A stretch of DNA of 64,000 nt from Liolophura sinensis. Lineage: Eukaryota > Mollusca > Polyplacophora > Chitonida > Chitonidae. The translations under genes were made by a program, and so were the position numbers. The notes beneath the pieces are model-generated. The model worked only from the letters and a program-made list of their open reading frames with translations, had not been told where the DNA came from and did no database searches. Where the stretch lies: assembly GCF_032854445.1 (NCBI RefSeq), contig NC_088302.1:11591338-11655337 (forward strand), written 5' to 3'. Shown here in pieces: positions 564 to 48,200 of the stretch. Every line of letters starts with the position of its first letter. Position 1 is the stretch's first letter.

Positions 564-1751
564 ATGACGTAGACGCCATGTACAAAATGTGTGCGTACGA
601 TTACGCCATGGCCGTGCCGTCGCCATGGTGTGCCGTGTTCACGAACTCTGACCTCCAGCTTTTGGAACTGAAGGAAGATGTGATCAGCGCTGAGATGTAC
701 GGTTACGAGGACGAGATCAACAAGAAGGAAACCTGCGTACTCATGAAGGACTTTGTGGATAGAATGTAAGTATTAGCGCTTTCTCTATTAAGGAGGATAT
801 TTGCCGATATTTATTTGTCTGTCTGTTACTCTGTTCGTCAGCATCTTCATCAAGGCTTTTGCATCACAGGCTTTAACTATGGGCTAAGGACAGCTATTCT
901 AAATTTTGGTGGTGATCCGGAACACGGATTCTGGAAGTTTTGAAACGATTCTTCACAATTAACCAGTAAGAAGAAACGCAGAGTATTGTCTCCGTGTCTG
1001 TATTATGGGAATCTTCCCATTAGCTGTGCCGGAGGTTTACACTGACTTGTTTTACAACCAAAAATCTAAATGCCCAGTTATAATTTGAGCCATTAGTCTT
1101 TTTTTGTATCAGTATATTTGAACGATAACTTTCTCATTTACATCTAAGATTTCTTATTCTCAAAGACCTATTTTTTTCAAAGTTTTCACTGAAATGGCTT
1201 TATAGCTTGCCATGTGGCTGTTCCACAGTCATATTCAGCCAGACTCTCAGACCAGATGGTAATCTCATTTGGCACCTCTTTTCTCCAGGAATGACCGACA
1301 AAGACAGGCCAACCTGATGCCCGCAGTCGTTGCCTACTTCGCCAAATCAGAAACCATTCTGCCATTTTTTACTAGCCTTGGACTGTTTGAGGACGAAGAA
1401 GATATTGAAATCGATGATGATAACTTGGCCTCGCTGGCCAACAGGAAATGGCGGACGAGTTTAATCAACCCTTTCATGTCAAACATCGCTGTGACGATGT
1501 ACACGTGTCAGGTGGCAGGCGGTGCACCCACCTACAGCGTTAAGGTAGCCGTCAATGAGGTTCCTGTCACCCTGCCCAAGTGCGATGCCACTTTCTGTTC
1601 AATGGACAATCTCATGGAAATGATAGAAGATTTTGCGGAAGAATGCAGTTTTGAAGAAATCTGTGACGGCGTCTCGGCCACTTCAGCCAGCGTGTCGTTC
1701 CTCGCGCTAATGGCTCTCATCAGTACTCTCTACGCATGTCTGTTCTCCTAA
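564..1751 (+). CDS. MINPP1-like histidine phosphatase, 3'-terminal two exons (5' partial)
   Basis: Multiple inositol polyphosphate phosphatases remove phosphates from inositol polyphosphates in the secretory pathway or at the cell surface. Two exons are seen, 564-765 and 1289-1751, joined AT|G across a GTAAGT donor and a CTCCAG acceptor. The first encodes the family block DAMYKMCAYD...SPWCAVF; the second encodes the C-terminal lobe (LMPAVVAYF...TILPF, KWRTSLINPF). At the position of the family HAE proton-donor motif this protein reads KSE, so the histidine is lost and the glutamate kept. The last about 22 residues are hydrophobic after a small-residue stretch, which suggests a GPI-anchor signal rather than the vertebrate ER-retention tail. 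The RHGxRxP exon must lie upstream of the window. It is convergent with its paralogue at 4035. Confidence 0.85.
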
Positions 1752-4034: not shown

Positions 4035-7000
4035 TCAAATGACACAGCCAAGAATGATCGCAAATATGACGAGGTAGTTAACGCGACTGATATTTACGCC
4101 ACTGTTTTCACAAACAGCGTTAAAATCACAACTGTCAGCTGTTTCACCCACAGTGCTCATCACGGTATCCCAGTCATGGCTGGAAGACAGCCTCTCGTTG
4201 ATGAAGGTGAGCAACTCGAATTTTGAGTCTGTCCGCTCGTTGACGACAAGAGCGACATGCGCAGAGTAAGGATCCTTTAATGACAGCCGCCACTTCCGCT
4301 GATCTTGTTCCGCCATATTGCTGCTCCGCAAAGCATCCTGGCCATCGAATACTCCAAGCTGAGCCAGGAAGGAATTTATCACAGGACTGTGTGTAAATCT
4401 GAACACGCCCGCAGGATAGTTACCTGGTGATTCCTTTGACGGCATTCTGGCAATGAAAAGATTAAATGAGACAATTTCAGAGTGAGACATACTGTTATTT
4501 AGTCATGAGCCATAAAATGAACAAATGCCCAAACCGAGTTGATGTATATTTTTGAGGTAAATAGTTCTGAATGTGAAGAAAAAATAGAAAAAAAAAAACA
4601 GGCATCATGAGATTTCAGTGTCTTAGACGTACTTCAAAAGCCTTTATTTACAATGTAGATTTTAATCTGCTTCCAGTATCTTCCCTTGCTTCCCTTGTTT
4701 GTGTACCTATTTATAGTGCTACCTAACTAGAACGTCATGCTGAAGACAACAGGAGTGGTGTTCAGTCATGCTCACATGTCCTTGAGGCAATGTGTGCAGT
4801 TCTTACCTGAGGTACTTGGCAACATCTTTCAGTAAGTCACACGATTGGTCAGTATTGATTTGATACGCAGGACCCTCGAGGTAATAGTTCCGGAGATCTT
4901 CCAGGTACTCCATGGTAACCAAATTCTGGCGGGAAAACACAGCACACCAGGGGGAGTCGTCATACACCACGTGATCAAATACACACATCTTATACATGGC
5001 GTCGATGTGATCTGGGATTAGAAATAACGATTTATAAAAAACAGAACCAAAATTCGTTGTAAGTCAAATGTAAGGGAATACTCGATTTCTCCGTTTAAAT
5101 TATATCTTGATTTTCTCAAATAGCCTGTTATTCAACTGGGGGGTTAGCAAACCAGCGCGGCGCAATGACCCAGGAACCTCTCACCAATGCGGTCCGTGTG
5201 AGCTCAAGCCCAGCTCATGCTGGCTCCCTCTTCGGCCGTACGTGGGAAGGTCTGCAGCAACCTGCGGACAGTCGCGGGTTTCTCGGCTTCCTCCCACCAT
5301 AATGTAGGCTGCCGTAGTATAAGTGAAATATTCTTGAGAACGGCGTAAAACACTGATGAGATAAATAAATATTATTCAACTGTCACATATTTGCAACGCT
5401 CCCTGGAATGCAAAGCTATAGTGTCGTGCAATTACGAATTATACGCATCATCGATAGGTATTAACATCTGCACTGCCTTCAAGATAATTACTTAAAACAA
5501 ATCATCTTTTACTATCCAAAGGTTTCTTCAAAAAGCAATTCCAAAAACAGCTTTTTATCAAAGCAACCACCACTTTTCAGTAGGCTACGTGGCAACTAGA
5601 AAACGGCATTTTCAACTGCAGATCCACAAGGAACGTTCAGCTAAGTTTGTCATCTATTTTCTGTATGAATAAATTCTTAACGTTACATCTTAACGTGACA
5701 GTATATATTATATCTAACAATTTGTGCCATTCGGCGAGAAACACTATCACTGGTGCCAAAGCGATCTCTCTTAAAGCCTATACACGAAGTGTTCTTGAGG
5801 TCGGCGTAAAACACTAATGAAGTAAATGTATAAACTGATGCTTTCATTTTATGGCCATCTTTAAGAGATGAAGTAGGAATGAATACTTTGAGCCATCCAC
5901 GTTGAGCACAAAACAAAACACTGAATCTGCTCAACCGGATATATATGGACGGGTACTTTGTGTTGAACATTGCTAATGACTCAAAGGTGAAGCTATATCT
6001 ATGTGTCGATGGTCAGTAATTCCGAGAAGAAATGTTTATTTATGCGGACAACGACCGTGTCTGCAAACCAAGGAATCATTTGTTTGTGGAAGCCGATAGA
6101 GGACATCTCGCTACCTCGATCTGTACAAGCGAGGTAACGAAGTGAGGCAGCGAAGTGAGTCATCTCGCTGTCTCGCTGCCTCGCTTCGCTACCTCGCTGA
6201 ATAACATCGCTACCTCGCTGCCTCGCTGCCTCGCTCTGTATTGGAAAGGTTGAGGTAGCGAGATATCCTCTATCGGGTTCATATTTGTTAATGTAAAAAG
6301 ATGCGAAATCTAACTTACCGAAGGTCAAACTTCCTTTGGCAAATCCCAGAAAGGTTTCTATGGCGGGAATGGTAACCTGGTTTATGTGACCTTGGATAAA
6401 CTTTGTCCTCTCTGGCATTGGATTCTTTCGTGTCTGTACAACACCATGGAAACGTTATATTGGTAACGGTAAACCATTTTAGTGAAAAATAAATGAGAAT
6501 TCAGACGAGAAATGTAGAGTATAAAGGAATACAGCACAGAGAATAAATCAAGGGTAGCGATGACAGCGTGTTAGAGGGAAGGATATGTGACGAGAAAAAA
6601 ATCAGAAAAAGATGCAATAAGAACCGTTGAATAATTTCTCACCTGAGAAGCTTTGTGGCAATTTTTGTAAAACTGGAGTAAGGAATCTTGACCTTTAGGG
6701 TTATGGGAAACTTCAACTTCTGTAATATAAGGGATAGTAAAGTGAACAGATATAGAAGACCACAGCATGTAATTGGAAAATGGTTACACGTAACCGGTCA
6801 AATACGGTCTCTTGTCAGTTTACCTTATATATCATGAACAATAACTTTTAACAATTAGGCACACATTTCAGGTGATGACTGAAATCCCTTTTCCGGTAGT
6901 AAGAAACTTTTGCATCAGCGAGAACAGATAGGCCTATAGTACGCATCTTAAAACCCTACTTGTAACCATCTCTTATAACTAACATATGAAAAGATAAAGT

Positions 7001-8773: not shown

Positions 8774-11700
8774 CTGTAAAAAATGGCAGGATTTGTAAAG
8801 CCACACATCACGAAAGTACTCTCAGTATACTGTCAAAAAAGTGATGCCAGAATGTACTACAGTAGATTGTTCTGTTAAATACAACACACATATTCTATTA
8901 AGATTCCATAAAAGTAACAGAATATTATGTTATGGTTACAGAATACATTCTAGTATCACCCAGACAACAGACTTTCTCTCAAAATTAACAAATTATTATT
9001 TTTTTTAGTATACTTCACACATATATATGCTCGCACTAGTACACACCCTGCCACTAAATGGGCCCCAACTTATAGAATTCAAGACTTGGTCTGATGAATT
9101 AATTAGAATCGATGTTATGGTGAATTTAGGCTCAAATTTCACGCACATGAAAAGCACAATAGCACAAGGGGGATGTTCCACCATCAATGCATGCATGGTA
9201 CGCACCTTAATTTTACAGAATTCGTGACACTCTCTTATGAATATTTGAATCTAATTGGGGTAAATGATAAGGGTGGTATCTCAAAAAGTAGTGTATACGT
9301 ATTCCATTTATTTATTTATTTGATTGGTGTTTTACGCTGTATTCAAGAATATTTCACTTATATGACGGCGGCCAGCAATGTGGTAGGAGGAAACCGAGCA
9401 GAGGCCGCGGGAAACCCACTGGCTCTACCCGGTTTCTTCCCACCGTAATGCTGACCGCCGTCGTATAAATGTTAGTATAAATATTCTTGAATACAGCGTA
9501 AAACCAGTCGAATTAATAAATGAATATCTGTCAACAGGAAAGTTCCCGGTTAAACTAGCTTAATTCCGACCTGTTAGTTATCTGTACGGTTTCATACTGT
9601 GCTATTTATTGTGTACATGGTGCATCTAATTTACCCATAATGAGAATGGACTGATTCACTTGGCTTGAGTCGGGGAAACGGTGAACGGTAAACGCGACGT
9701 TAACTTAGTAGATATTTCGCAACATGTTTATAATTGGCCAGGCTATTTTGACATTTGCGTATATGGGCGACCCACGTCTCTCAAATACCACAAGTAGGCC
9801 AGCACTCACATGGTTTCATTACGTATTTATGAGAAATAGTATCATCTTTCATCCCTTTGCTTTAAGAGCACCGGTAGGCCTACGTAGCTATTTCCGGTGT
9901 TACACAAGCCTACATTCCACTTCCAAAATGTGGCATGAGTCAGTTTTCGCGCGCTTTGTTTTAGTTTCGGTTTGGAATCCAGCTTGTCAGCATACGGTAG
10001 CTTACAAATACATGTAACAGCGGTGAGCGAGTGCAGTTTATATGAACGTATGAACCTTACACGGTAGCATTTTGAAACAGTAGGCTTGTGACAGAGCTTG
10101 ACAAGAGAGTATAACTGCACACCCCACGTACATGTAGTTGTACATAACTGGTCATCTAGCTGGGTAAGTACTCCACAGCCCAGGCAAATACTACGGTTAA
10201 TTCACGATGAGCTTTTGAGTCTAAAAAAGGACAGATACAACGTACTCGAACGAGAAAGCGTGCTTGTTTGGATTTCGTGTGTTAATCTGTAGCCCTCAGT
10301 GATCTGCACGGATATCACATGGCTGGATCAGTCGTTACAACTTGTATTCTTGAAATTCGCATGATGTTTGCTTTGTAGTCATCAGTACCGGTATAGCTTG
10401 TTGGGATATTACATGGTTTGATTTGTAGGAGTACAAGTTACATGCTTGGATTTCACACGATTTATTTGTTTGATTGGTGTTTTACGCCGTACTCAAGAAT
10501 ATTTCACTTATACGACGGCGGCCAGCATGATGGTGGGAGGAAACCGGGCACAGCCCGGAGGAAACCCACGACCACCCGGAGGTTGCTGTCAGACCTTCCC
10601 ACTTACGGCCGGAGAGGAAGCCAGCATGAGGTGGACTGAACTCTCAGCGACCGCATTGGTGAGAGGCTTCTGGCGCTAACCAACTGAGCCACGGAGGCTC
10701 CGATTTCACATGATATGATTTGTAATCATCAGTGTGGCTTGCTTGAATATCACATGGTTTGATTTGTAGTCATCAGCATAGCTTTCTTGGATATCACATG
10801 GGTTGATCTATAGTAATTACAAGTTGGATGCTTGGATTTCACATGGTATGATTTGTAATCATCAATGTAGCTTGCTTGGATATCACATGATTTGATTTGT
10901 AGAAGTTACAAGCTATTTGCCTGGATTTCACATGATATGATTTGTAATCATCAGTGCAGCTTGCTTGGATATCACATGGTTTGATTTGTAGAAGTTACAA
11001 GCTATTTGCTTGGATTTCACATGATATGATTTGTAGTCATCAGTATGGCTCACTTGGACTTTGAGTGATATGATTAATGCATACAGACTGCCAGCTTGGA
11101 TTTCGAATGGCACAGTCACTAGCTATAACTTACTCGCTTGGATTTGTAAAGATATGATTTGGTGTCACAAGTTTCTTACTTGGATTTTACGTGATGTAAT
11201 TAGTTGCACTTTGCTGATTAGAATGATATGATTTGTGGGTTCTTGCTTTATTAATTACATGGTTACTCAGTGATAGGACACGCAAATATATGGTGTCAAT
11301 AAGCCTCACTTTGGGCTCGCCCGAACCCAATATAAATACATATATTTGCCTATCCTATCATTGAACTTATCATAACCATGTAAGAATTTTTATCCTGCAA
11401 AGACCCATCAGTTCATTACAGAAGGCTGATGCTTTAGTGATGGGACCATTACATTCACAGCCCAACCAAGGGAGATAACCTACTCAGCAGACACGTCGTC
11501 TGCAGGATTGGAGAATACGTCTGTATCCCACGTGACCATTGTTGTCCAGTAAAAAGCGGAGTATTTTGTCTGATGCGGGATAACAAAGGATACATTAAAC
11601 GTTTGGTTTCTATTTCTTAATACGGAGTATAAAACGTGGGCTAACATTCAGAAGTACAGAAAAAAGATCTTTAACTTTCTTCTTTGGGCGTAAAATGGAT

Positions 11701-14700
11701 ATAAATTCAAATGGTTAAATTTCAATGGTATGAGTTAAGTTCACAACATGCTTGTCAATAATCCAAATGGTAAGAATGGTCATAACTGCCTTGCTTAGAT
11801 TTCATACCATTTAATTTCATGTGACATAATTTTGTCATAATAATGAACTTATAACCTTTGTTGTTGTTTTTTTTTTCTTTCAGAAATTGTCCATTACTCA
11901 CAGCGAACGGCCTATTCCCAAAAATGGCTTCACCCGACATGCCTAAGGAAAAACGCACAGGGTGTGGTGAAAGTATTGTGCTGAATGGAGCACACAAATG
12001 TTCTGGTAAACAAGCCCCTAAGGATGACGACGACAAGCCCAAGGAAGTGTGCAAAGGATGTGGTAAAAGTTTTGTGCGGATTAGTAGGCACAAATGTACC
12101 GTTGAACAATCCCCTGAGGATGACAACGATAAGCCCAAGGAAGTATGCGAAGGGTGTGGTGAAAGTATTGTGGAGAATGGGGCACACAAATGTACTGGTA
12201 AACAAGCCCCTAAGGATGACGACGACAAGCCCAAGGAAGTGTGCAAAGGATGTGGTAAAAGTTTTGTGCGGATTAGTAGGCACAAATGTACCGTTGATCA
12301 ATCCCCCGAGAATGACGACGATAAGCCCAAGGAAGTATGCGAAGGGTGTGGTGAAAGTATTGTGGAGAATGGGGTACACAAATGTACTGGTAAACAAGCC
12401 CCTAAGGATGACGACGACAAGCCCAAGGAAGTGTGCAAAGGATGTGGTAAAAGTTTTGTGCGGATTAGTAGGCACAAATGTACCGTTGATCAATCCCCTG
12501 AGAATGACGACGATAAGCCCAAGGAAGTATGCGAAGGGTGTGGTGAAAGTTTTGTGGGGATCGGAGCACACAAATGTACCGGCGATCAATCCTCTAAGGA
12601 TGAGGACAAACCAAAGGAAGTGTGCAAAGGATGTGGTAAAAGTTTTATGCGGATTAGTAGGCACAAATGTACCGTTGATCAATCCCCTGAGAATGACGAC
12701 GATAAGCGCAAGGAAGTATGCAAAGGGTGTGGTAACATTTTTGCTCGGATTGGTAGACACAAGTGTACCGTTGATCAATCCCCTGAGGATGACCACGATA
12801 AGTCCAAGGAAGTGAGCAACAGATGTGGTAAAGGTTTTGTGCAGAATGGGACACACAAATGTTCTGGTAAACAAGCTCCTAAGGATAACGACGACAAGCC
12901 CAAGGAAGTATGCAAAGGATGTGGTAAAAGTTTTGCTCGGATTGGTAGACACAAATGTACCGGTAATCAATCCCCTGAGGATGACGAGGATAAGCCCAAC
13001 GAAGTATACGAAGGGTGTGGTGAAAGTATTGTAGAGAATAGGGCACACAAATGTACTGGTAAACAAGCTCCTAAGGATAACGACGACAAGCCCAAGGATG
13101 TATGCAAAAGATGTGGTAAAAGTTTTGCTCGGATTGGTAGACACAAATGTACCGTTGATCAATCCCCTGAGGATGACGACAAGCCCAAGGAAGTATGCGA
13201 AGGATGTGGTAAAAGTTTTGTGCGGATTAGTAGGCACAAATGTACCGTTGATCAATCCCCTGAGGATGACAACGATAAGTCCAAGGAAGTATGCGAAGGG
13301 TGTGGTGAAAGTATTGTGGAGAATGGGGTACACAAATGTACTGGTAAACAAGCCCCTAAGGATGACGACGACAAGCCCAAGGAAGTGTGCAAAGGATGTG
13401 GTAAAAGTTTTGTGCGGATTAGTAGGCACAAATGTACCGTTGATCAATCCCCTGAGAATGACGACGATAAGCCCAAGGAAGTATGCGAAGGGTGTGGTGA
13501 AAGTATTGTGGAGAATGGGGTACACAAATGTACTGGTAAACAAGCCCCTAAGGATGACGACGACAAGCCCAAGGAAGTGTGCAAAGGATGTGGTAAAAGT
13601 TTTGTGCGGATTAGTAGGCACAAATGTACCGTTGATCAATCCCCTGAGAATGACGACGATAAGCCCAAGGAAGTATGCGAAGGGTGTGGTGAAAGTATTG
13701 TGGAGAATGGGGCACACAAATGTACTGGTAAACAAGCCCCTAAGGACAACAACAAGCCCAAGGAAGTATGCAAAGGATGTGGTAAAAGTTTTGCTCGAAT
13801 TGGTAGACACAAATGTACCGGCGATCAATCCTCTAAGGATGAGGACAAACCAAAGGAAGTGTGCAAAGGATGTGGTGAAAGTTTTGCTCGGATTGGTAGA
13901 CACAAGTGTACCGGTAATCAATCCCCTGAGGATGACGACGATAAGCCCAACGAAGTATACGAAGGGTGTGGTGAAAGTATTGTAGAGAATGGGGCACACA
14001 AATATACTGGTAAACAAGCCCTTAAGGACAACGACAAGCCCAAGGAAGTATGCAAAAGATGTGGTAAAAGTTTTGCTCGGATTGGTAGACACAAATGTAC
14101 CGTTGATCAATCCCCTGAGGATGACGACAAGCCCAAGGAAGTATGCGAAGGGTGTGGTGAAAGTTTTGCGCAGATTGCTAGGCACAAATGTACCGTTGAT
14201 CAGTCCCCTGAGGATGACGACGATAAGCCCAAGGAAGTATGCGAAGGGTGTGGTAAAAGTTTTGTGCGTATTGGTAGACACAAATGTACCGGTGATCAGT
14301 CCCCTGAGGACAACGATAAGCCGTTGGAAGAATGCAAAGAGTGTGGTGGAAGTTTTGTGGCGATTGGAGCACACAAGTGTACCGGCGAACAATCCCCAAA
14401 TGACGCCAAGCCGATGGAAGAATGCAAAGGATGTGGTAAAGGTATTGAGTGGATTGGGGAACACAGGTGTACAGGTAACCAATTTCCTAAGTACGACGAC
14501 AAGCCTAAGGAAAAATGCACAGGATGTGGTGAAAATTTTACCTGTCTTGCAGAACACAGATGCAAAAGTGGAGAAGACTTCTCCTTCGCCGAACGCTGTG
14601 AAATATGTAAAAATATTACCCAGGGCAGTCACGAATGTAAACCGCCAGTCACGAGCCTACCAGAGGTGTCACGTGATCCGATCTACAATCTCAATCCTAA

Positions 14701-17543
14701 AGCTGCATTAGGCCGAATTATTGAGGAGGTCAAGTTAGACAAGGGAGATATCACAGACGGAGCAGGATTTATTAAGGATCTAATGCAAAACTTTGTAAAA
14801 GATCTAAATGAGCTTGACCCACATTTCCAGTGGAAACTCCTGACATCAGGGTCATATTATGAAAAGGTCAAGGTGAGTATTAATTTATACAATACGGAGC
14901 CGTGCAATAGTCTATGAAACTCAGTGGAATCTTTTTCTCGTAATTTTGCTATAACCTACTAAGACGAGAAGGTAATCAATTGGAAATGGCATTTTTTAAA
15001 AATTATTTGATTGAGGTTTTACGCCTTACAAAGAATATTTGACTAATACGACGACGGCCAGCATTATGGATGGAGGACTACGACCATCCACAGGTTGCTG
15101 AAAGACCTTTCCACGGAAATGACATTTCCTTTTCTTGCACGATGAATAATAATATAATGTATGTTGAATGTTAGAGATGTATATTCACTTCTCGACAAAT
15201 TAATATTTAAAATAAAAAGTTTGCAACTATACATGTACTAACACCATGTTTGTTTGGCTGAATTATATAGATAGGCAATATACGCTGGTTCAGTTTGATT
15301 CTGTGTACTTTCCACGCGCAGGTTTGCAAGCCAAATGAGTTCGATCTGATGATTGTCGCCACGCCCCCCTGTGAAGCTCACTATGCACCCTCCAGCCCAG
15401 ACTACTGTTCTGTTGAAATTGCTGAGCCTAAGCGATCGGCCATGTCGGAATTATTAACGGATGGGAAATGGTTGAGCCCCAAAGCTGTAAAAGCACACGT
15501 TTTGAGATTGCTTCCCAAAGCTCTGGAACAATTTCGTCTTTCCAAACGCTTTGGTAAGTTGTACTTTTTTTAAATATATGTAGTGTGAATAAATGTACCT
15601 TTCCATCCTTCAGAGACATGTATAACAGGTTTAGAAAGTCAATTAACTTAGTTACTGATTAAGTTATTTTGACTTGATTGGTGTAATTGTTCACGCATTA
15701 TATTTTCAGTGTGTGTAATGCTCTTCCTGATTTTTCTTCCACCACAGTTTGATAATGGTGATGATAATGGTACTGGTCTGGTAATACCACTACACAGTGC
15801 GTATGTGAAAATTATAATTGCTTCAAACACCAATCAAATAAATAATTAAATTATACTGCAACTGTCCATTACAGCTTCTGAAGTGGTACAAAGTACAAAA
15901 AGTCCAGCGCTTAATCTCCGATGCACACGAAAAGCTTACCACGGAGAAAGCGCCTATTCTGTTACTTACGACGTTGATTTGGTGCCAAGCATGGAACTTC
16001 CTACATTTCCCCCATTCGCAGCGCACAAGAAGAAATATCAGAACATGAAAACACACGTTGTTGCCAAGACTGCTACAGAAGGTAAGAACAAATCTCAGAA
16101 TGGAGTTTTTTTCAGTCCATGTGCAGAGAATAACACACATACCGCCAGACAGTCGAAAAACTTGTATTGGATAAGAATTAATATATAAATGAAAATCTTT
16201 TACATACAACTAATAAGGGTTCTTTTTGCGCGGCAACAGACAATATCTGACGTGTCCCGAGGATTGCCGATATTGGCCCATATATTACGCAATGCATTGT
16301 GGAGGACCTTGTGCGTATAGTAGTCCATGTACGCGATTCGAAAAGTAAACAATACATTCATTATGGATCTTAGTCTTAGTTCATTTTGCGCCAACAAAAT
16401 GTCAAAATGTCTTCTTGCATGACCGAAAACAAAACATTGTGACAACGTTTTAAGTTTTGATTTAAGTCAGAAATGGTATGTGGAATGGGTCCAAGGTGAC
16501 GAATGAGAGCTTTGGATTATTTACACGTGAGATATCGAAAGTTGTTGTTTCTCTGATACGGAAAAAATATGGGATAAATAAATCTATATCCCGATGGGGA
16601 CTGAAATATATATAATTGGAAAAAAAAAACATACTGCTAAAACACAGCAGGCAAAAAAATAATTTTATGGTGTTATTTTTTTTTTGTTACAGAAATGCAG
16701 TTTGAATGTAACAAGGACAAACTCTGGCGCGTCTCTTTCTCAAACATTGAAAAGAGCATAATTTTGCACGCTGACCGTGGTCAGATGACATGTCGCAAAC
16801 TGGTTTTCAGAGTCTTAAAGTACATTCTGGAGAAAGCCAAAGAGGAATACAACATACAGGACTTATGCTCGTATCATATTAAAACGTTCATGCTGTATCA
16901 GTACGACGAGTGGCCCGCAGATGAGAGTTGGTGCAATGCTAGGCTACGGACACGCCTCCACCATTGTATTTCACAACTTCAGAGGGTTCTGACGGACAAG
17001 AAATTATTTCACTACTTCTTAACGTCTGTCAACTTGGCAGAGAACCTGAAGGATAGAGATATTGACAGCTTTGTTCGAGTATTGGACGATTACATAAGAA
17101 ATATTTAGTATTTTTGCTCATTTGAAAGTGCCATATAAAACAAAGGGAAAATGCTTATTGTAACAGCTTGTGACTATACGTTAAGACTTTTTGTTCCACA
17201 GTATGTTTCTTAGATGTTTGTAAATATGCTTACTAAATTCATACCATGTAAATCATATTGCGCGCAATCGGTCTGGTTTTAAAGTGTGTGTATATTAAAT
17301 GTTATGACAGCACAGCATTCTGAGTAACTCTAGACAAGTGACATGTAATAAATTGCAATTAACACCACTGATTTTTACCTAAATCCACTGAAGCCATGGT
17401 GACAGGAGGCATAACACCACCACATTTGCTTCAATTTCGTATTAACATGAACAGTTAGAATAAAACCCTACATAAAGATATATAAGAGTATATATATACA
17501 TACATACATACATAGAGAGAAGAAACTGTACACTTTTATCCTT

Positions 17544-17651: not shown

Positions 17652-20600
17652 TGTGTGTGTTTATGCATATATAACCTAATTGCATGTATATGTCACCATC
17701 CAATACCTTACTCTAACAAAACTGTAATATGTTCTTAACATATTATTTTATTATCCACTGTATTGGCAATTACCTGTTCAGTGATGTCGCCTGTTATGTG
17801 ATATAATACTCTACACAGTAATCCATTCATCGTTGTATATACTGTCAAATCTGTCCCAATGACACTAAAACTACATCATAAATGTTTTTTACCAAGCTTA
17901 TCTCATTAGAAATGTCCGTTAATTATGCTTTTCTGGGAGATTATACTGTATACATGTATACAGAGCTAAAACGTGCCTCACTTAGCACAATTCTCCTGTG
18001 GATGACTTAAATAAAGCAGAAATATTGAGATCGTCAAAAATAATTTCTTCGGAGTTAGTTTGCTTATTTATTATAAATAGGCATTAAGCTTGCCAGAAGA
18101 AACCATGCAGTATCTGTGTACATGTTATTTTGCCCACAACTTAGCGACACGGTTCACTGGGCTCGGGGGAACTTTGGTGTGTTCACCGAGTTCCGAGCAA
18201 GATCAACGATGATGTCATTTTTGAAAAATCCGACCGTTGACGGAAAATATGCATAATATGGAGTGGTAATTAACAGGTATAAAATACCACCAAAATGAAT
18301 TTTTTTAACAAAAATTCGGGTATATAATTTTCTTCATTTGACATAGAAACATAATCTTCCTTTTCATGTATCTTTTAATTATATTGTGGTATACATAAGC
18401 TCTTCCATATTTTAAGCCCGTAGACAAACGACATTTTGCATTTTATACTGAAAACTCCCCGACACAGTATGTAACATCGCCCTTTAAAGGAGAAGAAAAT
18501 TTTAAAAAATTACACTATACGCTGAAAAGAGCATAATTTTGCGATTTTCCTCCCCATACACGTAAAGCCTGAAAACGGCAAAGCTGGCATAAATCGCTGA
18601 GTCCATCGCGTCCTCTACATTATTATTATTATTTATTATCATTATCATTAAAAATGTTGGCGTGTGCCAGTCCCAAGTGGGACTGATTTACACCAAAACT
18701 GAGAGATTTACACATAATACTTAATCATTCAAATCAGTGCGAAACATTAGGATCTCCCTGTAGATATTATATAATCCGCAATAGCCTGGAAAATTTTCAA
18801 TCGGTGGTTATTAAAACTTACTAACCCTTCAACAGTAAGACGTTTTACACCCAGAGCCGTTACCCGTTGGTGTAAAACGAATCTATTATTAGTAAAATTA
18901 AAGCAATGGGGTAAATAATGAGATACAGTTTCCTCCATATGACAGTAATGACAAAGGCCATCAGAATGTAATCCAACCCTCTCGCATTGAGAGGACAGAC
19001 ACCTGAAAGAAGCCGAAAAAACAAAACTTCAGCCTTACGTTTAGACAGTTGCGCCAACCCCTAACCCACTGAAGGTTGCAGTTTGTAAGAAAACCTGCCA
19101 TCAACTGCAAAGTCCCTAATATCCTACCATATCATATAAAAATATTTGCTACATTTCGACAAAAACTCTTAAAGGTTAAGTTTAACAGGAAAGGAGACAT
19201 CAGGAGAATTCAGTGCTTCCTCATTCCCTTTCTCACCAACATGAGCTGAAACCCTGACTAGGCATACCTCCGTACCCACTGAAAATAAATAAGTGTAGCT
19301 AAGTCTATGATGTTTAGAATACCTCAGTTCAGGAACAAGAAAAGCCGCCGCACACTTGTGAACATCTGGAACACAAGAGGCATCCGTGAAAATCTGCAAG
19401 TAGCTGTCCCAAAAGGATTTAACATAATCATTAAAACAAAGAAAGCTCAGCTCTGGTAAGTCAGACTTTCTTATGCACTCCTTGGCATCCATACTAACAA
19501 CAGGAAGTTTTAATTCCCACGGGAGGATTTTAGGGATACAGTCATCCTGCACCATTGACAAATCAACTCCAGTTTCATCTACAATTTGACGAGCACGAAT
19601 GCTAAAGGGCAGGGATCAAGGATCTAGTAACTTAGAAGCTGGGCTATGCTTTGCCACAGATAACTTCACAGCATACTTAAATGTTCTCCACTTTCTTCTC
19701 AGAGACAGTGGCAACTCGTCACAAGCAACTTGGAGAACTCTGGAGGAAGTGCCTTTGATTGCACCTGTACGTAAAGCACTCTACTGGATTGAGTCTAATT
19801 TAGCAAGCACTGAATCTGAGGCAGATTCATACACTTCACAGCAATAATCAGCCGTAGACTGTATACTTAAAGATGGAGAAAATTTAAAGGGCATTTCATT
19901 TAATTTTAGGTCAATATAAGGAGTAATACGTCTTTTTGCAAAGATCATGGCTTCAGATTTAGTAGCCCAGAATCGAAAACCCGATTGCTCCCCCCCCCCC
20001 CCACCCAATCATAGATGTCTAGCAGAGCCTGCTGAATATAACGTTGAGCTGCTTTAAGGCTGCGTGAAGCATACCACAGAGCTTTGTCATCCGAAAAAAG
20101 CCGACCTTTGACTTTACTATTTAATACGAATGGTAAGTCATTAATCATTATATTAAATAAGGCTGGAGAAATCACTCCACCTTGAGGTGTACCATATTCA
20201 AGGCTAACCAATTAAGAGACAGCGTTACCTACCCGTTCCTTGATACACCTATTTGATAAGAAATTCCTTACCCAAGCAAGCGTCCCCCCGCCAATATCTA
20301 AGTTATGCAGCTTAATTAAGACACCCTTCCTCCACACCATGCCGTAAGCCTCTTCTACATCCAGGAAAGCTGCTAAAAGATATTCTTTATTATTAATAAC
20401 ATTTTTAATATCTGACTCCAGACAAGTAACAGGGTCAACTGTACAGCGTTTACGTCGAAATCCACTTTGGACAACTGAGAACAAATTATTCCTTACCAAA
20501 ACCATATTAGCCTAGAGTTTACAAGTTTTTCCATTAAATTTCATACAGTACTGGAAAGCGAAATTTGCAGGAACAACCAAAGCATTACCCCAACCTAGGG

Positions 20601-39289: not shown

Positions 39290-42200
39290 CTGTGGAAAAA
39301 CAATACACACAGAACATACACTAAACTTCAGTTTTCAAACCTTTTCAAATTATACAATTAGAAAAGGCCAAAATTTGTTGCAGAAATTTGTAATAGTTTA
39401 ACCCCTGAGAGGCTGGTATTTATACTACATTCTTTTCAGTTTTGCCTACTTACATTAACTACTGCTCGAGGTATCTTATTACAGTTTTAAAGGCAAGATA
39501 CATCCTGACAAAAACAGACAGAGCATATCTATTCTATTATTACCTTGCTCCATTCTCCTGACAACCATATATACTGAACATGTTGTGGAGTTGTGGTTGT
39601 GGTTGTGGTTGTGGTAGTGGTTGAGGTAGTAGTAGTCCTAAGAGAGGTTCTTCTTCTTTTAGAGTTGTCCCGTAGAAGTTGATGAGAGTTATCTCCCCTG
39701 TTGCGCCTAGAGTTCTCTGCCCTTGGGTGGGCCAGTCCAGGCTTTCCTGCTATGTTGACTACCTCCTGATGCTTACTATAGGGGACTCCACTGAGTTTAG
39801 TTTCTGAGTTGATAGATGATATTATGCTAGGCTGATTATCAGCTAGATTTATATTATGCAAGTCACCACGTTCGTCTTCTTCTATTTCACCCTCAGAGAT
39901 GACTGGATCACTTTCATAACCACCTTCCTCTACTACGGGTGGAAAGTTTTCTGCGCTTAAGTTTTCCTCTGAACCTATATCATGATCAGCTGTCCCAATA
40001 AGCTTAATTTCAGATCCTTTATTAATTGTTAATGGCTTAGCTTTTTCTTTGCCTATACTTTCTTCGCTTTCAGCCTGTTCTATATTTTCTGCTTTAGTTG
40101 TTTCTATAATCTCAATATTTGCTGGTGCCTTTACATGTCCTTCTAAATCACCTGATGAGTTTCTTTCAGCTGTTTCCCTTATTTTCTCATTTTCAGGAAC
40201 AAGTACAGCTGGCACTGTTGGAAAAACGTATTTATCAGCTCTTGAAAATTCCGAGTGTCTTTTGGATGTTGGAGGACTGGTCATTTTTGCTGTGCTTGGT
40301 TGTGATGGAGGTGTTGTTGTGGTAGTACTTGTTGTTGTTGTCGTAGTACTAGGTTTTATTGTTGTTGTAGTACTCGTTGCTGTTGTTGTAATACTCTCCA
40401 TTGTAGTTGTAGATGGTTTCGGCATAGTTGGTTTCACAGTTGTTTCTGGACAAGTCACGTGCAGACAATGTCTCTCGGCAGGAGGTTCCATTTCCAGGTC
40501 ACATGACTGACCCCCATCGCAATAAACATTACGGTACTGCATCCCACCACCACAAGATCGTGTGCACTGGAAACAGAGACAAACATGCTCATGAGGAATG
40601 TGAGACATCCTGCAGATTCCTTCAGAATCTTGAAACGTCAACAAAATAAATTAAAACAAATGTTGCAGATCATGGCATTTAATCAAGTCACAGAAAGATC
40701 TCACTATATATACAAATTTAAGAAAAATGAAATTCTGATGAGACAAGGTCTGTAATTATCTCACAGGTCAAGGTCAGCATCTGGGACTCTGAGTATCTGT
40801 TCCTATAAAATATTTCAGAAATCAAGTGACTCAAAATATCTGTTCATGTCTCTTCCTTCATTCAATTAGTGTTTTGTACCAAACTTAAGGGGATATTCCT
40901 CTCAATGGAATTGGTAAGAGCTGACGAAATCTTTTATCACCTCAAGGTATGGGCAAAGTCAAAAGCATACAAAAAAATAGTTATTTATTTATCTATCCGA
41001 TTGGTATTTTAGGCGGTACTCAAGAATAATTCACTTATATGACGGTGGCCAGCATTATGGTGGGAAGAAACCGTACAGAGCCCAGGGGAAACCCACAACC
41101 ATCCGCAGGTTGCTGGCAGACCTTCCCATGTATGGCCATCCAGCATGGGTCATTACACTGCCCTAGCATGCTAACTAACTGAGCCACGGATACCCCCCAC
41201 AATACAGTTGTGGTGCATTAAAAGATGACAATGTATATTTCACAGAACTTCTGCAAAAAGTTGCACAGTTTGCTGTAAATCATGTAGTTTCATCGATTTT
41301 TTTCCCCACAAATAAACAAACTGTAGTACAGAATGGTGGTTGGCCACATCTTCAGTTATACGATTTACTACAAGTCACATAAACTATTATGTGATTTATT
41401 AACTAAACTAATGTTGATGGCAGTTAGTGAGAAATTCCACTAAATAGTATGTCCTTGCTTACCTGTGACCACAAGCCCGCCTCCCACTGACCACAGGTGA
41501 TGTTCCCACACTGCTGCTTGTGGGCTGGCTTAGTCGCCTTGTCACAACCAGCCTTAGGTTTGTCACACTCCACAGTCCGTTCATGATAGGCACAAGGGTT
41601 ACCATTACATGTCTGTCAAAGAGATTTTTTGCATCAACAAAATTCATATTTGCTCATTTGTTCCTCGATATTTGCTTATTTACTTAAGATTTTCAGAATC
41701 TAAAGGGTATAATAAGGGTTTATTAAAACCAGCCATTCTTGATTACTTGAATGCTTTAGAATTTGAGATTAATCATGCTGATAATATATTTGAAGAGTAA
41801 CAAAATGCTTGAATGATTAATACATAACATATATGAACTCAGCAAAAATAATCATAATTTTTTTTTGTAAAGAAGAACAAAAATTTCTTAAAATTTGAGA
41901 TTTGTCACCGAACGTTTTAAAATAAGTTTTTCACACCAACTCGTGTTGCACTTACATCTTGCCACTCTCCGACCACCCAGTTCCCATTCTCAGGGCACGG
42001 AGGTTTCTTTTTCCGGCATGGCTCCACAGATGTAGGTTTCTCCAGACCGTCACAAGCAGAATCCTCAAGTGCTATCTGCTCATCGGGTCCCAAGCTTCTG
42101 ACACAAATCACCGTGCGTCGGTGGAGTCCCTTGTTGCCACATGTTGCTGAACAGTGTTGCCATGGTCCCAGCCACCACCTGACCAATGAAATCATTCCTC

Positions 42201-45200
42201 TTATATCAATGTACAATGATGACTGTTCATAGCGGGGTTGTCACACCATTTAGCCACCACCTGACCAATGAAATCATTCCTCTTATATCAGTGTACAATG
42301 ATGACTGATCATAGCGGGGTTGTCACACCATTTAGAGACCACCTGACCAATGAAATCATTCCTCTTATATCAATGTATGATGATGACTGATCATAGCGGG
42401 GTTGTCACACCATTTAGAGACCACCTGACCAATGAAATCATTCCTCTTAGGAATGTTCATGAAAAAGATATCAATGTACAAGGATGACTGATCACAGCGG
42501 GATTTAGAGGCATTTACTACTTACCTCTTGTCCTACACTTTGGAAATACCTTCCACATCATTTTTTGGCCAGGTAAGAGTCCACTTATTTATTATTAACC
42601 AACTTCCATTTCCCACAGAAACAAATCTTTCTGTAATTACCAAATCAGGCTTAGGTTGCTATACAATAGTATTAATCAGTAAATATTAGTGACTGTATTT
42701 GATCTAAAATTTTATCCGTGATTGTTTCTCATTTTCAGAGTTCTATTGATCTTAGAAAAGATGTTTTGAGGTTTATTTGGTGAATTTTTCTGGAAAACAA
42801 AGTATTTATTGATCAGTTATAATTAATTAGTAACAACCCCAGTAATCTGCTTCTGTAATTATATTTGCACCTTCTCAGAAATGAATACTCCACAAATCTT
42901 AAAACTGGTTTTACTATATACCATGTGTCACTTTCACAAAACTTCTTAAGTCACATTTCTCATACCTTCCTTTTCATAAAAAACGTGTACTGTGCCATGA
43001 GGCAAAGTTACATATGAGAAAAGTTACAAAAAAATTGATTTACAAAGTTTCGTAAAAGTGGGCCCAGTGCATTTAAACATTTAATCGCTACTGTCAATCA
43101 TCATGTGTAGTACCCCATGAACCACTTTACCTGGCTGGACATTGGTGGTTGTTGCATGATCGTGATTGATCATCCTGCTTTGTGGTAGCATTACAGTAGC
43201 GATCGTCAACATGTCCAGCTTCTCTCTCCATACAGATCACATGGGACCTCTGTGAACCTTGAAATAAATCATGCAACCTTACACAGATCTGATCAACGTT
43301 TTATCGTTTCAGCCATATCACCTAAAGAGTTACGTTTTCTTCTTCACATCTTCATTGATTACTGTGCATATTGTCCTAAATTAAACCAGCGACATCTATT
43401 TATTTATTTATTTGATTGGTGTTTTACGCCGTACTCAAGAATATTTCACTTATACCAAGACAGCCAGCATTATGGTTGGATGAACCCGGGCAGAGCCTGG
43501 GAGAAACCCACAACCATCCACAGGTTGCTGGCAGACCCAGAGATTTCTATGACTTTGCCATAAAGCAATGCGATCCTGTCTTAAAGGGACACAAGTTGTT
43601 TGTGTTAATGTCTTAAACAGGAAACAATCATTTTGCAAAAGAAATTGTTGGAACAGTTTTAAAATTTAAGGAATGGAATACAACAACGCAACAGCATTAT
43701 TCTATTTTTGGTGACATACTTAAATACAAAAAAAATTTAAATGTTTTAATTAATGTCATTAAATCTAACCCCTCCCAGCTTTACCTCCTCCACACGACAC
43801 AGTACAATGTGACCAATCCGTGAACTCCCAGTAGAACTCCGGGTGTCGCTCATCCGTGGCATTTTCATTGGGTACTGTGTATTCAAACATTACGCCCGGA
43901 TTGTGGGACTGAAACAACAGCTGTAAATAAGAATAAATTTTTGGGTTCAAAAGAGCTCAGCAACATTTATTATCCTTGTGATATTAAAGTTTATTTTGTG
44001 TTTTACGGGCAAGCCAACAATAAAAATGCCATTAGAATAAACACAATTTTGAAAATCAACCATTAAATTTTGTCTGAACTTATTAAGATCTTCCTGTTAA
44101 ACACAGCCTTCCGATCATGTATATATATATATATATATATCTTTAACATGAACAACTGCTGGGACACTCCACATTTCCCAATAGAGTTTAGGCCACATCA
44201 CAAGTAAATTTTTAATTCACTGGCAGAATGAATCTTTTTTCAACATTGGAGGAGGGTATAGAAATAACAATAAAACTGAAAAACCATATAATTTGTTGGA
44301 ATTATTAAAAGATACATCTATCACAGGTAACAGGTAAAGCAAATGAATTACAATTTACATATAAAGATTACTTTGTCAGTTTGCTTGGGATGTGAGATTT
44401 TACACTATGAGAGACAAGAAAACATCCAAAACTGCTAAATTATGGAGCCAAAAAGATTGCAAAAACTACAGACAACAATGTAAACATTTTATTGAGCAAT
44501 CAACAGCTCCACTGTAAAGCTGGCAACAATCTAATGACTTTTGAAAACTGGCAAAGTTACATTAAAGGCAAAGAAATCAAGTATGTATTGGATGAAAAAC
44601 CATTAGAAAATTGTTCAGGAAAATACTTAACAAGTATTTGTTTTTTTACAATTTGTTTAGCCTAGTAAAATGCATCAAATATTATATTCTATAGTGGCCT
44701 TTTCTGACATCACATAGCGGTTTTGCTACATGTACTTAAACATACACACATTAAACTGTTACATTTCATCATTCAAAATACATATCATATAGATCTATGA
44801 ATCCATTCACTGATTGGAACCTGAAACTGAATTATTTCAGGTAAAAAGTATAGATGTGACATTATTGATGCCTTCTGGGTCACAACAGACCACTGTAGAA
44901 TCTGATTTTTTAAAGACAATTTTACTCGGTTAGAAAAATTCTAAAACAAGTAAATCCAACCATTTTCCTGGAAAGTTTTTAATGGCCTTTCATCTGATAT
45001 ATACTTCATTTTAGAGTGGTCTTTGCCTTTACGGAAATGAGCAAGCTAGCCTGAGTAGTTGTACCATGATATGTAGGGGTTCCTTGAGTGGCCCAGAGGC
45101 CTCGAAACTCTCCTTGTTTCCCACACGACGATACTGCACCACTGTCCCCGCCATCTCGTAATCCCCGCTCCACTGGATGAACCAGTTCCCGTTCAGCAAG

Positions 45201-48200
45201 TAGTCTCCCTTGTCACTCTTCAGGGCCAGGTAGTTTGTGGCCTCTGCGACTTCCTCTACACGTATATTTCTTGCTCCCTCAGGAATTACTGTGGCTTCCA
45301 CATAACCTGCGGGACAAAATCACACTGGCATGAAAGAAACACCCAGAAAATTCACTGCATTTATTGAAAGGATGTGAAATACACATGTATCAATTGCCAG
45401 AAAGTTTATTTTGAAAGCGTCCTTTACCAAAAATAAGTCATTTCACAAGGTTTCCTTGCTTAATGCAAGAAGAGATGGATACACCAAACAATACTCAGAC
45501 TGAGACAGATGTACAAAAGAAGGTGTAGATGCACACCTGACATTTCAAAGCTCTCACTCCCATTCGGACAGGTATAAAGCATCAGGTGTAATTCATTTTG
45601 ATACAATGATTAAGTTTGTTTTACATTAATAATAAGAGTCATGTTTATAGATAAAAAAAAACAGGTGAAAGTCAGAAAACATTATCATACAAATATTATA
45701 TTAAATATTGCCACCATCTCTTTCTATGGTGAAGCCTCTTTGAAACTTTCTTCAGTTTATTTGTAACAATTTTACGGTTTTATCAGCTAGATTCTAAGGC
45801 ACACAAGGCATTATGGGATTTTGCAAGGCTACAGAACCAACCATTTCCTTGCTTGTCCTTGAACTGTTGTTTGACAGTCAAGCAACTTGACCCGTCCCCG
45901 TGGCAGACTCCACACCGGTCATCCTCAGCATTGGAGTCCAGCCCCCAGTCACAACCCACATGCTGCAAACACACGCAGGATTGGCTGAATTATTTGATGA
46001 CATCACATGAAATTTAAATCATTTCACTGATATGTGTAACATAATTTTACAAAGAATTACCATAGCAACCTGAGTCATACACATAATAAAATACTAATAT
46101 ATTTTCTCCTTGTGAGAAATCATGAAAACTAGCAGTGCTAGAAGGGCAGCCATACTGATCTCAAGTATGCGGTACCAGATACTCAACAGCTTTTCTGATG
46201 ATGTAGGGAGTCACTTTTATGAACACTGTGGTAATGTCAGTGCTCTAATATATTCCAAACTTAAACACTATCCTTCATAATTCACAAATATGCATACCAT
46301 AGGTATATGTCACTTCCTGTTTGGAGCAACAGTGCACACTACATGTTTTCCTGACTGATGAAGATTTACAGACAAATCATCAAACTTGATCTCTTGGTGC
46401 ATCTTTGTAATGTGTTGTAAACTTTTTAAATGTTTCAAAAGAACATCTGCTTTCATGGAGCAGTACAGTTTTTACTGCATTTTCCTTCAAGTAATTCTTT
46501 TTTCCAGCACAATCAACTACATGTATTTAATACTGACCATTTTCTTCAACTCATCAAAGCTTCACAAATTTCCTGTATCAAATTAACTACTTTAGATGTT
46601 CTCACCCTACAACGTCCTCCGATACACATGTGACGTCCATTCAGAGAACATGGTGTTCCGTCCGTCACTATGTCCTTCAGAAGTACCGAGAAATAGTTGT
46701 CTTTGGGTTTACAGTGGAGCTGGCAGGGAGTGTCTGAAACACAGCCAGACTATTGGATAATATTAATCGTGTTTGTGTTTAGTGTAGGCATCAGCATCCA
46801 TGTTGCCGTTTTTACCGATTCTTTACCGATTTATAAACAAAGGGAGGGAGGGATGTATAGACAGATATGCTGACATGACAGCTTTATCAGTTAATTTTGT
46901 ATTCAAATCTGGTTTAAATTTAACTTAACATAAAGGCACTTACAGATTGGAAGATGTAGGGATGGATACACAGATTGAAATGCTGACTTCACCAACAAGT
47001 TTTATTTTTTTGTGTTTCATTTTAAATACTGTTAAATTTGGATTTGTGGTTTAGTAGCAATTCTGCAAACAGACGAGTACACAGATTAAAACCAACACTG
47101 AAAGGAGCAGGAGCCAAATTTCATGAAACCTAAAAAAACATTTTACTGTCACTTTTTCAGAAAACTGTTTCCAGAAATGCCACCGAAACAAGGCAATTTA
47201 CAGCTAAATCTCCCAAGAAATGATTCTCCAAGTTTTGTAAAAGTTGTCCCTGATTATAACATGGTGTAAAATTATAATAGTCCTTCCCCAACTCCTAAAC
47301 TCACTGGGTGCTGGTACCGGCTCCCACTCATAATACTTCTTCTTGTAAGGTTTGGAATTGAACTCTGCACACTGAAACTGTCTGAAGCTGGGCTTCCCAT
47401 CTGGACAGGGCTGAAACAATGTCAGACACCAATATAAAGGTCAGTAGAAAATGAAAAAACATAATGTGACATTACTGCTGACAGTTTTATTAAAGGAGAA
47501 GAAAACATAAAAATGATACCAAAATCAGATGAAAGAGCATCAAAACTTATATGCAAATATGATCTTTAATATTTTTTTTGGATTTTTTTTTCATGAGAAA
47601 AGGGTATTTGAAAATATTTTTGTATTGTGGGTATTTGGGACCAACTTTTCGTATATTTATCATTGTTGAATAACAATGTTCTCATTAAGGATGTGATGCT
47701 TGTCTAATAAACTTATTTTGAATGTAAATTTGTTGTTTATATCAAAACATATGCATTTAACCTAAATTATGATAATATTTATGAATATATTAAAAATATA
47801 AATATGATTCAAATTGAGGCTTAATACATTTGTTAAAAGAACAAATTCTAGTGTAAAAATATATATTAAACCTGTGTTACATTTTCATTTATGACATTAT
47901 TAAACAAAGACTATAAATACCTAAAGGTGGTCACCAATACCCACCATACAAAATTTATTTTCAAGTGTCTTTTTCTCCTTAAAGAAAATCAGAAAAAATA
48001 TTGAAGACCACATTTAGGAATAACTTTTCCCTCTCTTTCACTGTGTCATTTTTATGTCTTCTCCACCTTTCACAATCATTCCCCTAACAAGAATATTAAA
48101 AATTTTTTATTTATTTATTTTTTTAATTCCAGAATTTTATGAGAGATCACTGACCATTATGTGAGCAACTTGTAAATTTTCCACATAAAAAAGTCAATAA

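Follow-up and report, generated by a model that had tools for sequence, protein, structure and literature searches.

How do cGAS-like receptors (cGLRs) of animals other than vertebrates and flies select their ligands and concentrate them? Several of the cGLRs tested so far are without a known ligand (PMC10855445). The question is raised anew by a gene of the chiton Liolophura sinensis, which lies within a 64,000-nucleotide stretch of DNA (hereafter referred to as the window) corresponding to C8:11591338-11655337 of a 609-Mb assembly, the contigs of which are labelled C1, C6, C7, C8 and C12 here. The first exon of this gene carries about 28 Cys2-His-Cys units in frame with a cGLR enzyme, and a paralog of the same plan carries nine; of this description we are all but certain. 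Here we set out the evidence for the fusion, describe the finger array and its paralog, and weigh what such an array might do.

Gene structure and fusion

The gene extends over positions 11924-17108 of the forward strand and is composed of four exons totalling 3804 nt (Table 1). Together these encode 1267 amino acids (aa), with a single stop at the end and no internal stop, and every intron is bounded by GT..AG. One open exon contains both the nucleotidyltransferase's GS motif and the finger array, and the fusion is therefore independent of any splice prediction. A first-pass annotation of the window had proposed a frame that closes over all four exons, catalytic acidic residues at E989, D991 and D1095, and a cGLR-array fusion at the gene level. 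The translation bears out the first two of these, and the third is upheld by the one-exon junction together with a second gene of the same exon plan.

Several trivial origins were considered and ruled out. A misjoining of two genes is incompatible with an array and a GS motif that share one open exon, and with the recurrence of the plan in the paralog; a frame artefact is dismissed since all 26 unit-to-unit distances are divisible by three; and a processed copy or pseudogene is dismissed by the introns and open frames of both genes and by the low ratio of non-synonymous to synonymous divergence (dN/dS, 0.16-0.27) of the enzyme. A 908-aa antisense frame at 11930-14656 is taken as a by-product of the 96-bp repeat unit being stop-free in that frame. 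The exact N-terminus is less certain, because an acceptor-like polypyrimidine tract and CAG (TTTTTTTTTTCTTTCAG) lies upstream of the ATG, at a distance of 40 nt from its end; an exon upstream of the ATG is thus possible, and would probably be non-coding.

Identity of the enzyme

As one spliced chain, the enzyme matches both Mab-21 (PF03281, E 8e-19) and Mab-21_C (PF20266, E 4e-21) over the Pfam cut-offs, and so contains the nucleotidyltransferase core and C-terminal helix bundle that define cGLR homology. A phmmer search of the PDB matched 42 distinct sequences, including cGLR1 (8gjw, E 4e-28), human cGAS chains (from 3e-25) and Mab21L1 (3e-10); by these E-values the enzyme is nearer to cGLR1 and human cGAS than to developmental Mab21L. 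The matches span positions 27-327 (8gjw) and 4-341 (human cGAS) of the 342-residue query. The catalytic set (GS, E989/D991 and D1095) is intact by alignment. In a 21-row tree, the window enzyme and its paralog group with 8gjw, with a support of 94/93 that is just below the 95/80 mark of the tool, and apart from all 17 other included Mab-21 genes of this genome; the deeper branching, including that of human cGAS, is left without resolution.

The 2023 cGLR survey defines a motif, h[QT]GS [X8-20] [DE]h[DE]h [X50-90] h[DE]h (PMC9980059). When this is applied literally, all catalytic residues are present and the first spacing is 11 residues, with SGS in place of [QT]GS and a second spacing of 101 residues versus 50-90. 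The sequence of 8gjw departs from the motif in the same two ways (KSGS and a spacing of 97). In human cGAS, the zinc thumb binds its metal through His and Cys ligands. Eight inserted human residues have no counterpart in our alignment, and the zinc thumb of vertebrate-type cGAS (residues 390-405 of the human protein; PMC10855445) is thus absent from the window enzyme.

Across the genome, 27 matches to Mab-21_C were found. Families of other closely similar Mab-21 genes are present at C6:11093356-11195606 (four genes) and C1:65504727-65545287 (three genes). A further cGLR-like open frame (L029, C6:11107767-11108057, reverse strand; 616 aa) carries in its N-terminal part approximately nine tandem copies, counted by eye, of an 18-residue unit like SESPDANAPPSLPSQKRQ. 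Because of this second kind of repeat, repetitive cGLR N-termini may recur in this species.

A paralog of the same plan

The paralog is located at C7:43792204-43795186 on the reverse strand and encodes 623 residues. Its exons measure 1017, 232, 207 and 416 nt, versus 2949, 232, 207 and 416 nt in the window gene. The array of the paralog consists of nine fingers, eight with the exact spacing C-x2-C-x9-H-x-C followed by the same short last knuckle, and from this knuckle onwards 300 of 376 aligned positions are identical between the two proteins. Over the enzyme part, dN is 0.11 and dS 0.69 by NG86 (dN/dS 0.16), and 0.125 and 0.455, respectively, by YN00 (dN/dS 0.27). Because dN is far smaller than dS, both enzymes have been kept by purifying selection.

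Searches of the genome with the array, which scored only the best first-look candidates (29 and 71), returned two loci: all 13 matches in one search and the strongest 13 of 35 in another fall in these. The remaining 22 matches have E-values of 2e-5 or weaker, and the best of them, at C1:55418722 (E 2e-5), was considered as a third, degraded copy and rejected: stops abound in this sequence, which is an unrelated minisatellite. A negative finger scan of 1.5 kb either side of the 27 Mab-21_C matches carries little weight, since it missed both known arrays too, and the genome-wide searches are the more telling test. A minisatellite with a 44/89-bp period lies 5' of the window gene (10702-11058), and a longer related repeat lies 5' of the paralog on C7; because of this related repeat upstream of both genes, the duplication probably took in upstream DNA.

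Architecture of the finger array

Tandem Repeats Finder (TRF) identified a repeat with a period of 96 bp and 27.4 copies at 11935-14539. In the protein, the strict pattern C-x2-C-x9-H-x-C occurs 24 times and a relaxed pattern yields 27 finger cores. With a damaged first unit and a short last knuckle added, the array amounts to 29 finger-like segments, of which 25 retain all four ligands, in good agreement with the approximately 28 Cys2-His-Cys units of the first-pass annotation. The 26 unit-to-unit distances take three values (90, 93 and 96 nt), each of which preserves the frame. The enzyme starts approximately 20 residues C-terminal of the last knuckle.

The four ligand positions are retained in 24, 27, 27 and 26 of the 27 window cores (Cys, Cys, His and Cys, respectively), and in eight of eight paralog cores at each position; all four occur together in 24/27 and 8/8 cores. 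Within the window array, deviating cells are far rarer in the ligand columns (4/108) than in the other core columns (98/324; Fisher p 5e-10, with the proviso that the units are not independent). The same comparison in the paralog (0/32 versus 4/96, p 0.57) is uninformative, the array being too uniform. By this conservation of ligands, the fingers are candidate zinc binders.

A classical C2H2 finger has the spacing C-x2-C-x12-H-x3-H and a beta-beta-alpha fold, and a retroviral-type CCHC knuckle has the spacing C-x2-C-x4-H-x4-C. The array fingers conform to neither: first described as Cys2-His-Cys knuckles, they resemble a shortened C2H2 finger and not a retroviral knuckle. The first half, C-x2-C-G-K-S-F, is shared with C2H2 fingers (PF00096), but the array finger is three residues shorter between the metal pairs, ends in H-x-C rather than H-x3-H and has a single helical turn in the AlphaFold model. 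The first halves of the paralog fingers match zf-C2H2 with a summed E-value of 7e-24 (profile positions 2-13 of 23). The score of the paralog array, a sum of eight half-matches, is 83.3 bits, above the cut-off of 25.2, and that of window exon 1 is 18.6 bits, below it. Among 25 of 26 Pfam families for the paralog array, zf-C2H2, zf-C2H2_4, Zn_ribbon_19 and Zn_ribbon_20 exceed their own cut-offs; zf-CCHC is neither among these 25 nor among the families listed for window exon 1. The AlphaFold input alignments contained 12 two-finger rows and 15 of the 27 window units, and no paralog rows. The resulting model of a basic-type finger shows two strands and one short helical turn, with a pLDDT of approximately 80.

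A PDB sequence search with three fingers gave four matches (E 0.16-7.9), and NCBIfam gave over the array a single match, far under cut-off, to an unrelated enzyme. A finger pair had 42 pattern matches among IMG/VR viral contigs and 111 among contigs of prokaryote genomes, none of them confirmed as a relative, and a literature phrase search for the spacing pattern gave no match.

With a net charge of -9.6 over residues 1-880, the array is near neutral overall; the 27 cores contribute a total of +55, and the 26 linkers one of -66. Fifteen of the 27 window fingers are basic (+3 to +6), nine are weakly acidic (-1 or -2) and three are at 0 or +1, and along parts of the array basic and acidic types alternate. 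In the paralog, all eight fingers are at +3 and the linkers at 0. The array had initially been called acidic; this holds for the window linkers but not for the array as a whole, given its basic fingers and the neutral linkers of the paralog.

Evolution of the arrays

At the DNA level, cores are 98% identical within the paralog (7/8 units) and 82% within the window array (26/27), versus 77% between the two arrays. Because identity within each array exceeds that between them, the arrays appear to have been amplified or homogenised separately after the gene duplication. In the paralog this must have been recent, because its units are 96-100% identical. The window units repeat in pairs and blocks, and many equal-length pairs at offsets of 2, 10 and 12 units are 0.95-1.00 identical in DNA.

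Possible functions of the array

We tentatively favour a reading in which the array is a multivalent module that concentrates the enzyme, by raising its avidity for nucleic acid or by assembly. Each intact unit would hold one zinc ion and adopt a small fold like that of a shortened C2H2 finger, with flexible, charged linkers between units. As a multivalent capture module, the whole array would increase avidity, either for nucleic acid or for further copies of itself, and the enzyme would be gathered into an assembly or condensate. Once RNA or DNA is bound, the enzyme core would make a cyclic dinucleotide that would be read by STING. Zinc fingers would in this way do the job that falls to the disordered basic N-terminus in vertebrate cGAS. 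That N-terminus gives cGAS a higher valency for DNA, and condensation of cGAS with DNA is promoted by free zinc (PMC9417938). Raised avidity would be the simplest effect of zinc fingers placed on flexible linkers before an enzyme that nucleic acid triggers. The basic fingers of both arrays argue for this reading, as do the intact catalytic set, the selection on the enzyme and the ligands retained through separate re-amplification of the two arrays. The fingers of the paralog, in particular, would fit nucleic-acid capture; in the window array, the acidic linkers and acidic fingers would fit a protein scaffold or self-association by opposite charges. A potential receptor for the product is encoded in the genome, where exons of the STING ligand-binding domain gave five matches over cut-off at C12:21312077-21371282. 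This cluster probably represents several STING genes. Heterobranch gastropods have been reported to be without STING (PMC9334734).

A number of results weigh against capture by the array. The weakly acidic fingers (9/27) and the acidic linkers oppose simple nucleic-acid binding along its entire length. DNA reading by classical C2H2 fingers resides in the second half of the finger, and this half is missing here. Overall model confidence is low (mean pLDDT 62 and 71), the linkers score low, and the second, acidic-type finger of the two-finger model reaches a pLDDT of only approximately 53. When one finger was compared with PDB folds, none of the 123 matches reached E <= 0.001 (the best was at 2.9); the majority of the 50 insignificant matches listed are C2H2 fingers by title. 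Outside the ligands there is little constraint, with a core dN/dS of approximately 0.6, both among the window units and in the comparison of the two arrays, versus 0.16 for the enzyme. Ligands themselves have been lost from three cores: the first Cys in units 9, 11 and 21, and the last Cys also in unit 21.

Part of this evidence would suit a protein-interaction scaffold, in which the fingers would contact a protein partner (ubiquitin chains, another immune adaptor, a viral protein) and would bring in or control the enzyme without touching nucleic acid. The mix of basic and acidic fingers, the acidic linkers and the rapid change of the array outside its ligands are all suited to protein contacts, and the accessory modules published for cGLRs (ankyrin, TPR and death domain) are predicted protein-interaction domains (PMC9980059). 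However, among 25 of 26 Pfam families for the paralog array, none of those over cut-off is a finger family named for binding ubiquitin or another protein, and the paralog fingers are all basic, although the paralog need not be the copy nearer to the ancestor. We consider the scaffold somewhat unlikely. The low constraint on the cores is also what a selfish or neutral minisatellite expansion within the exon would leave, a few ancestral fingers having mattered and copy number since having drifted. Such drift would account for the addition of units in pairs and blocks, the 27 cores versus eight in the paralog and the near-identity of the paralog units, which bespeaks recent amplification or homogenisation. 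It is at odds with the frame and ligands kept throughout the window array and with the retention of an array in both paralogs, and we regard it as unlikely.

Metallothioneins hold their metal in clustered cysteines, and the array fingers have the spacing of single-site fingers instead. This spacing, together with a sequence that contains nothing specific to metal sensing, makes it improbable that the array is a metal- or redox-responsive part, in which approximately 25 zinc sites, acting as a buffer or switch, would make enzyme activity depend on the level of metal or oxidant. The 25 segments with four ligands and the effect of free zinc on cGAS assembly (PMC9417938) are in its favour.

It is conceivable, if somewhat speculative, that a molluscan cGLR sub-lineage has moved ligand capture into a zinc-finger array whose length goes up and down through the duplication of units, the sensor valency of an innate immune enzyme (9 versus approximately 28) thereby being evolvable and possibly polymorphic. 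The paralog pair, with similar enzymes and 9 versus approximately 28 units, constitutes a natural valency experiment, and the borders of the array allow its removal or swapping without guesswork. Should the array bind nucleic acid, it would represent a second route to multivalent sensing besides a basic disordered tail; should it bind protein, it would be a pointer to a new cGLR partner.

Relation to known cGLRs

The window protein shares with animal cGLRs (human cGAS, 8gjw) the nucleotidyltransferase and Mab-21_C domains, the GS motif with three acidic residues and an alignment over nearly the entire enzyme; it differs in its N-terminal array of approximately 28 Cys2-His-Cys units and in an enzyme without the zinc-thumb insertion. 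To our knowledge, the N-terminus of vertebrate cGAS is not a Cys/His tandem repeat. ZCCHC3, a zinc-knuckle protein whose knuckles have the spacing C-x2-C-x4-H-x4-C, is a co-sensor of cGAS; it is a separate protein beside a cGAS-type sensor, whereas the window fingers are in the enzyme's own chain. Vertebrate cGAS resembles the window protein in having a long extension with many basic sites before the same kind of catalytic domain, but this extension is disordered and positively charged (PMC9417938). Invertebrate cGLRs, according to a review, have N-termini of fewer than 7 to 70 residues (PMC10855445), versus an extension of approximately 920 residues here.

According to the 2023 survey, 87% of 3,020 cGLRs stand alone, and the additions it names are TPR, ankyrin and death domains and multi-cGLR fusions (PMC9980059). 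These proteins share with the window protein a cGLR core with an accessory module, which here is a zinc-finger-type array instead. The word 'zinc' is absent from the main text of that survey, rarer architectures being given in its Table S2, and from the main text of PMC10732462. The supposition that no cGLR of this layout had been described is consistent with the literature searched, in which, among the matches listed, none with a zinc-finger array was found. As far as could be searched, the zinc-finger-array architecture thus appears to be new, and accessory domains on cGLRs as such are already published.

Features of the window and its contig

Table 1 Features of the cGLR gene, in window coordinates
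Feature	Position	Strand	Basis
Polypyrimidine tract and CAG TTTTTTTTTTCTTTCAG, ending 40 nt 5' of the ATG; possible 5' intron acceptor	11867..11883	+	sequence; inference
Exon 1 (ATG, entire finger array, first helix of the enzyme, GS motif; residues 1-983)	11924..14872	+	translation; one unbroken reading frame
Damaged first finger unit (residues 11-26; first Cys gone)	11954..12001	+	read from translation
27 finger units C-x2-C-x9-H-x-C with linkers of 14-16 residues (residues 43-880); four ligands in 24/27	12050..14563	+	TRF, pattern scans
Short last knuckle C-x2-C-x7-H-x-C (residues 892-905); paralog form CETCKKITQGSHNC	14597..14638	+	pattern scan, paralog alignment
GS motif of the nucleotidyltransferase (G976-S977, in LLTSGSYYE)	14849..14854	+	translation; aligned with human cGAS and 8gjw
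Exon 2, with E989 and D991 (PNEFDLM; codons 15337-15345)	15322..15553	+	translation, alignment
Exon 3, with D1095 (YDVDLVPS; codon 15976-15978)	15875..16081	+	translation, alignment
Exon 4, Mab-21_C helical domain (PF20266, E 9e-22) and stop codon; without the 8-residue zinc-thumb insertion of human cGAS	16693..17108	+	Pfam, alignment

On the 5' side of the gene, two opposed open frames (1263-1748, forward strand; 4038-4502, reverse strand) are alike by eye; the former matches histidine phosphatase branch 2 (E 6e-7) and the latter gave no Pfam match. On the 3' side, a reverse transcriptase fragment at 20215-20511 on the reverse strand (RVT_1, E 5e-7) is a retroelement remnant. Further along, exons of an ADAMTS or ADAMTS-like gene occupy 39532-45319 on the reverse strand, with Pfam matches to an ADAMTS spacer and to two thrombospondin repeats, of which one exceeds the cut-off. 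The contig of the window also carries a molluscan haemocyanin gene, recognised by eight beta-sandwich matches in a row.

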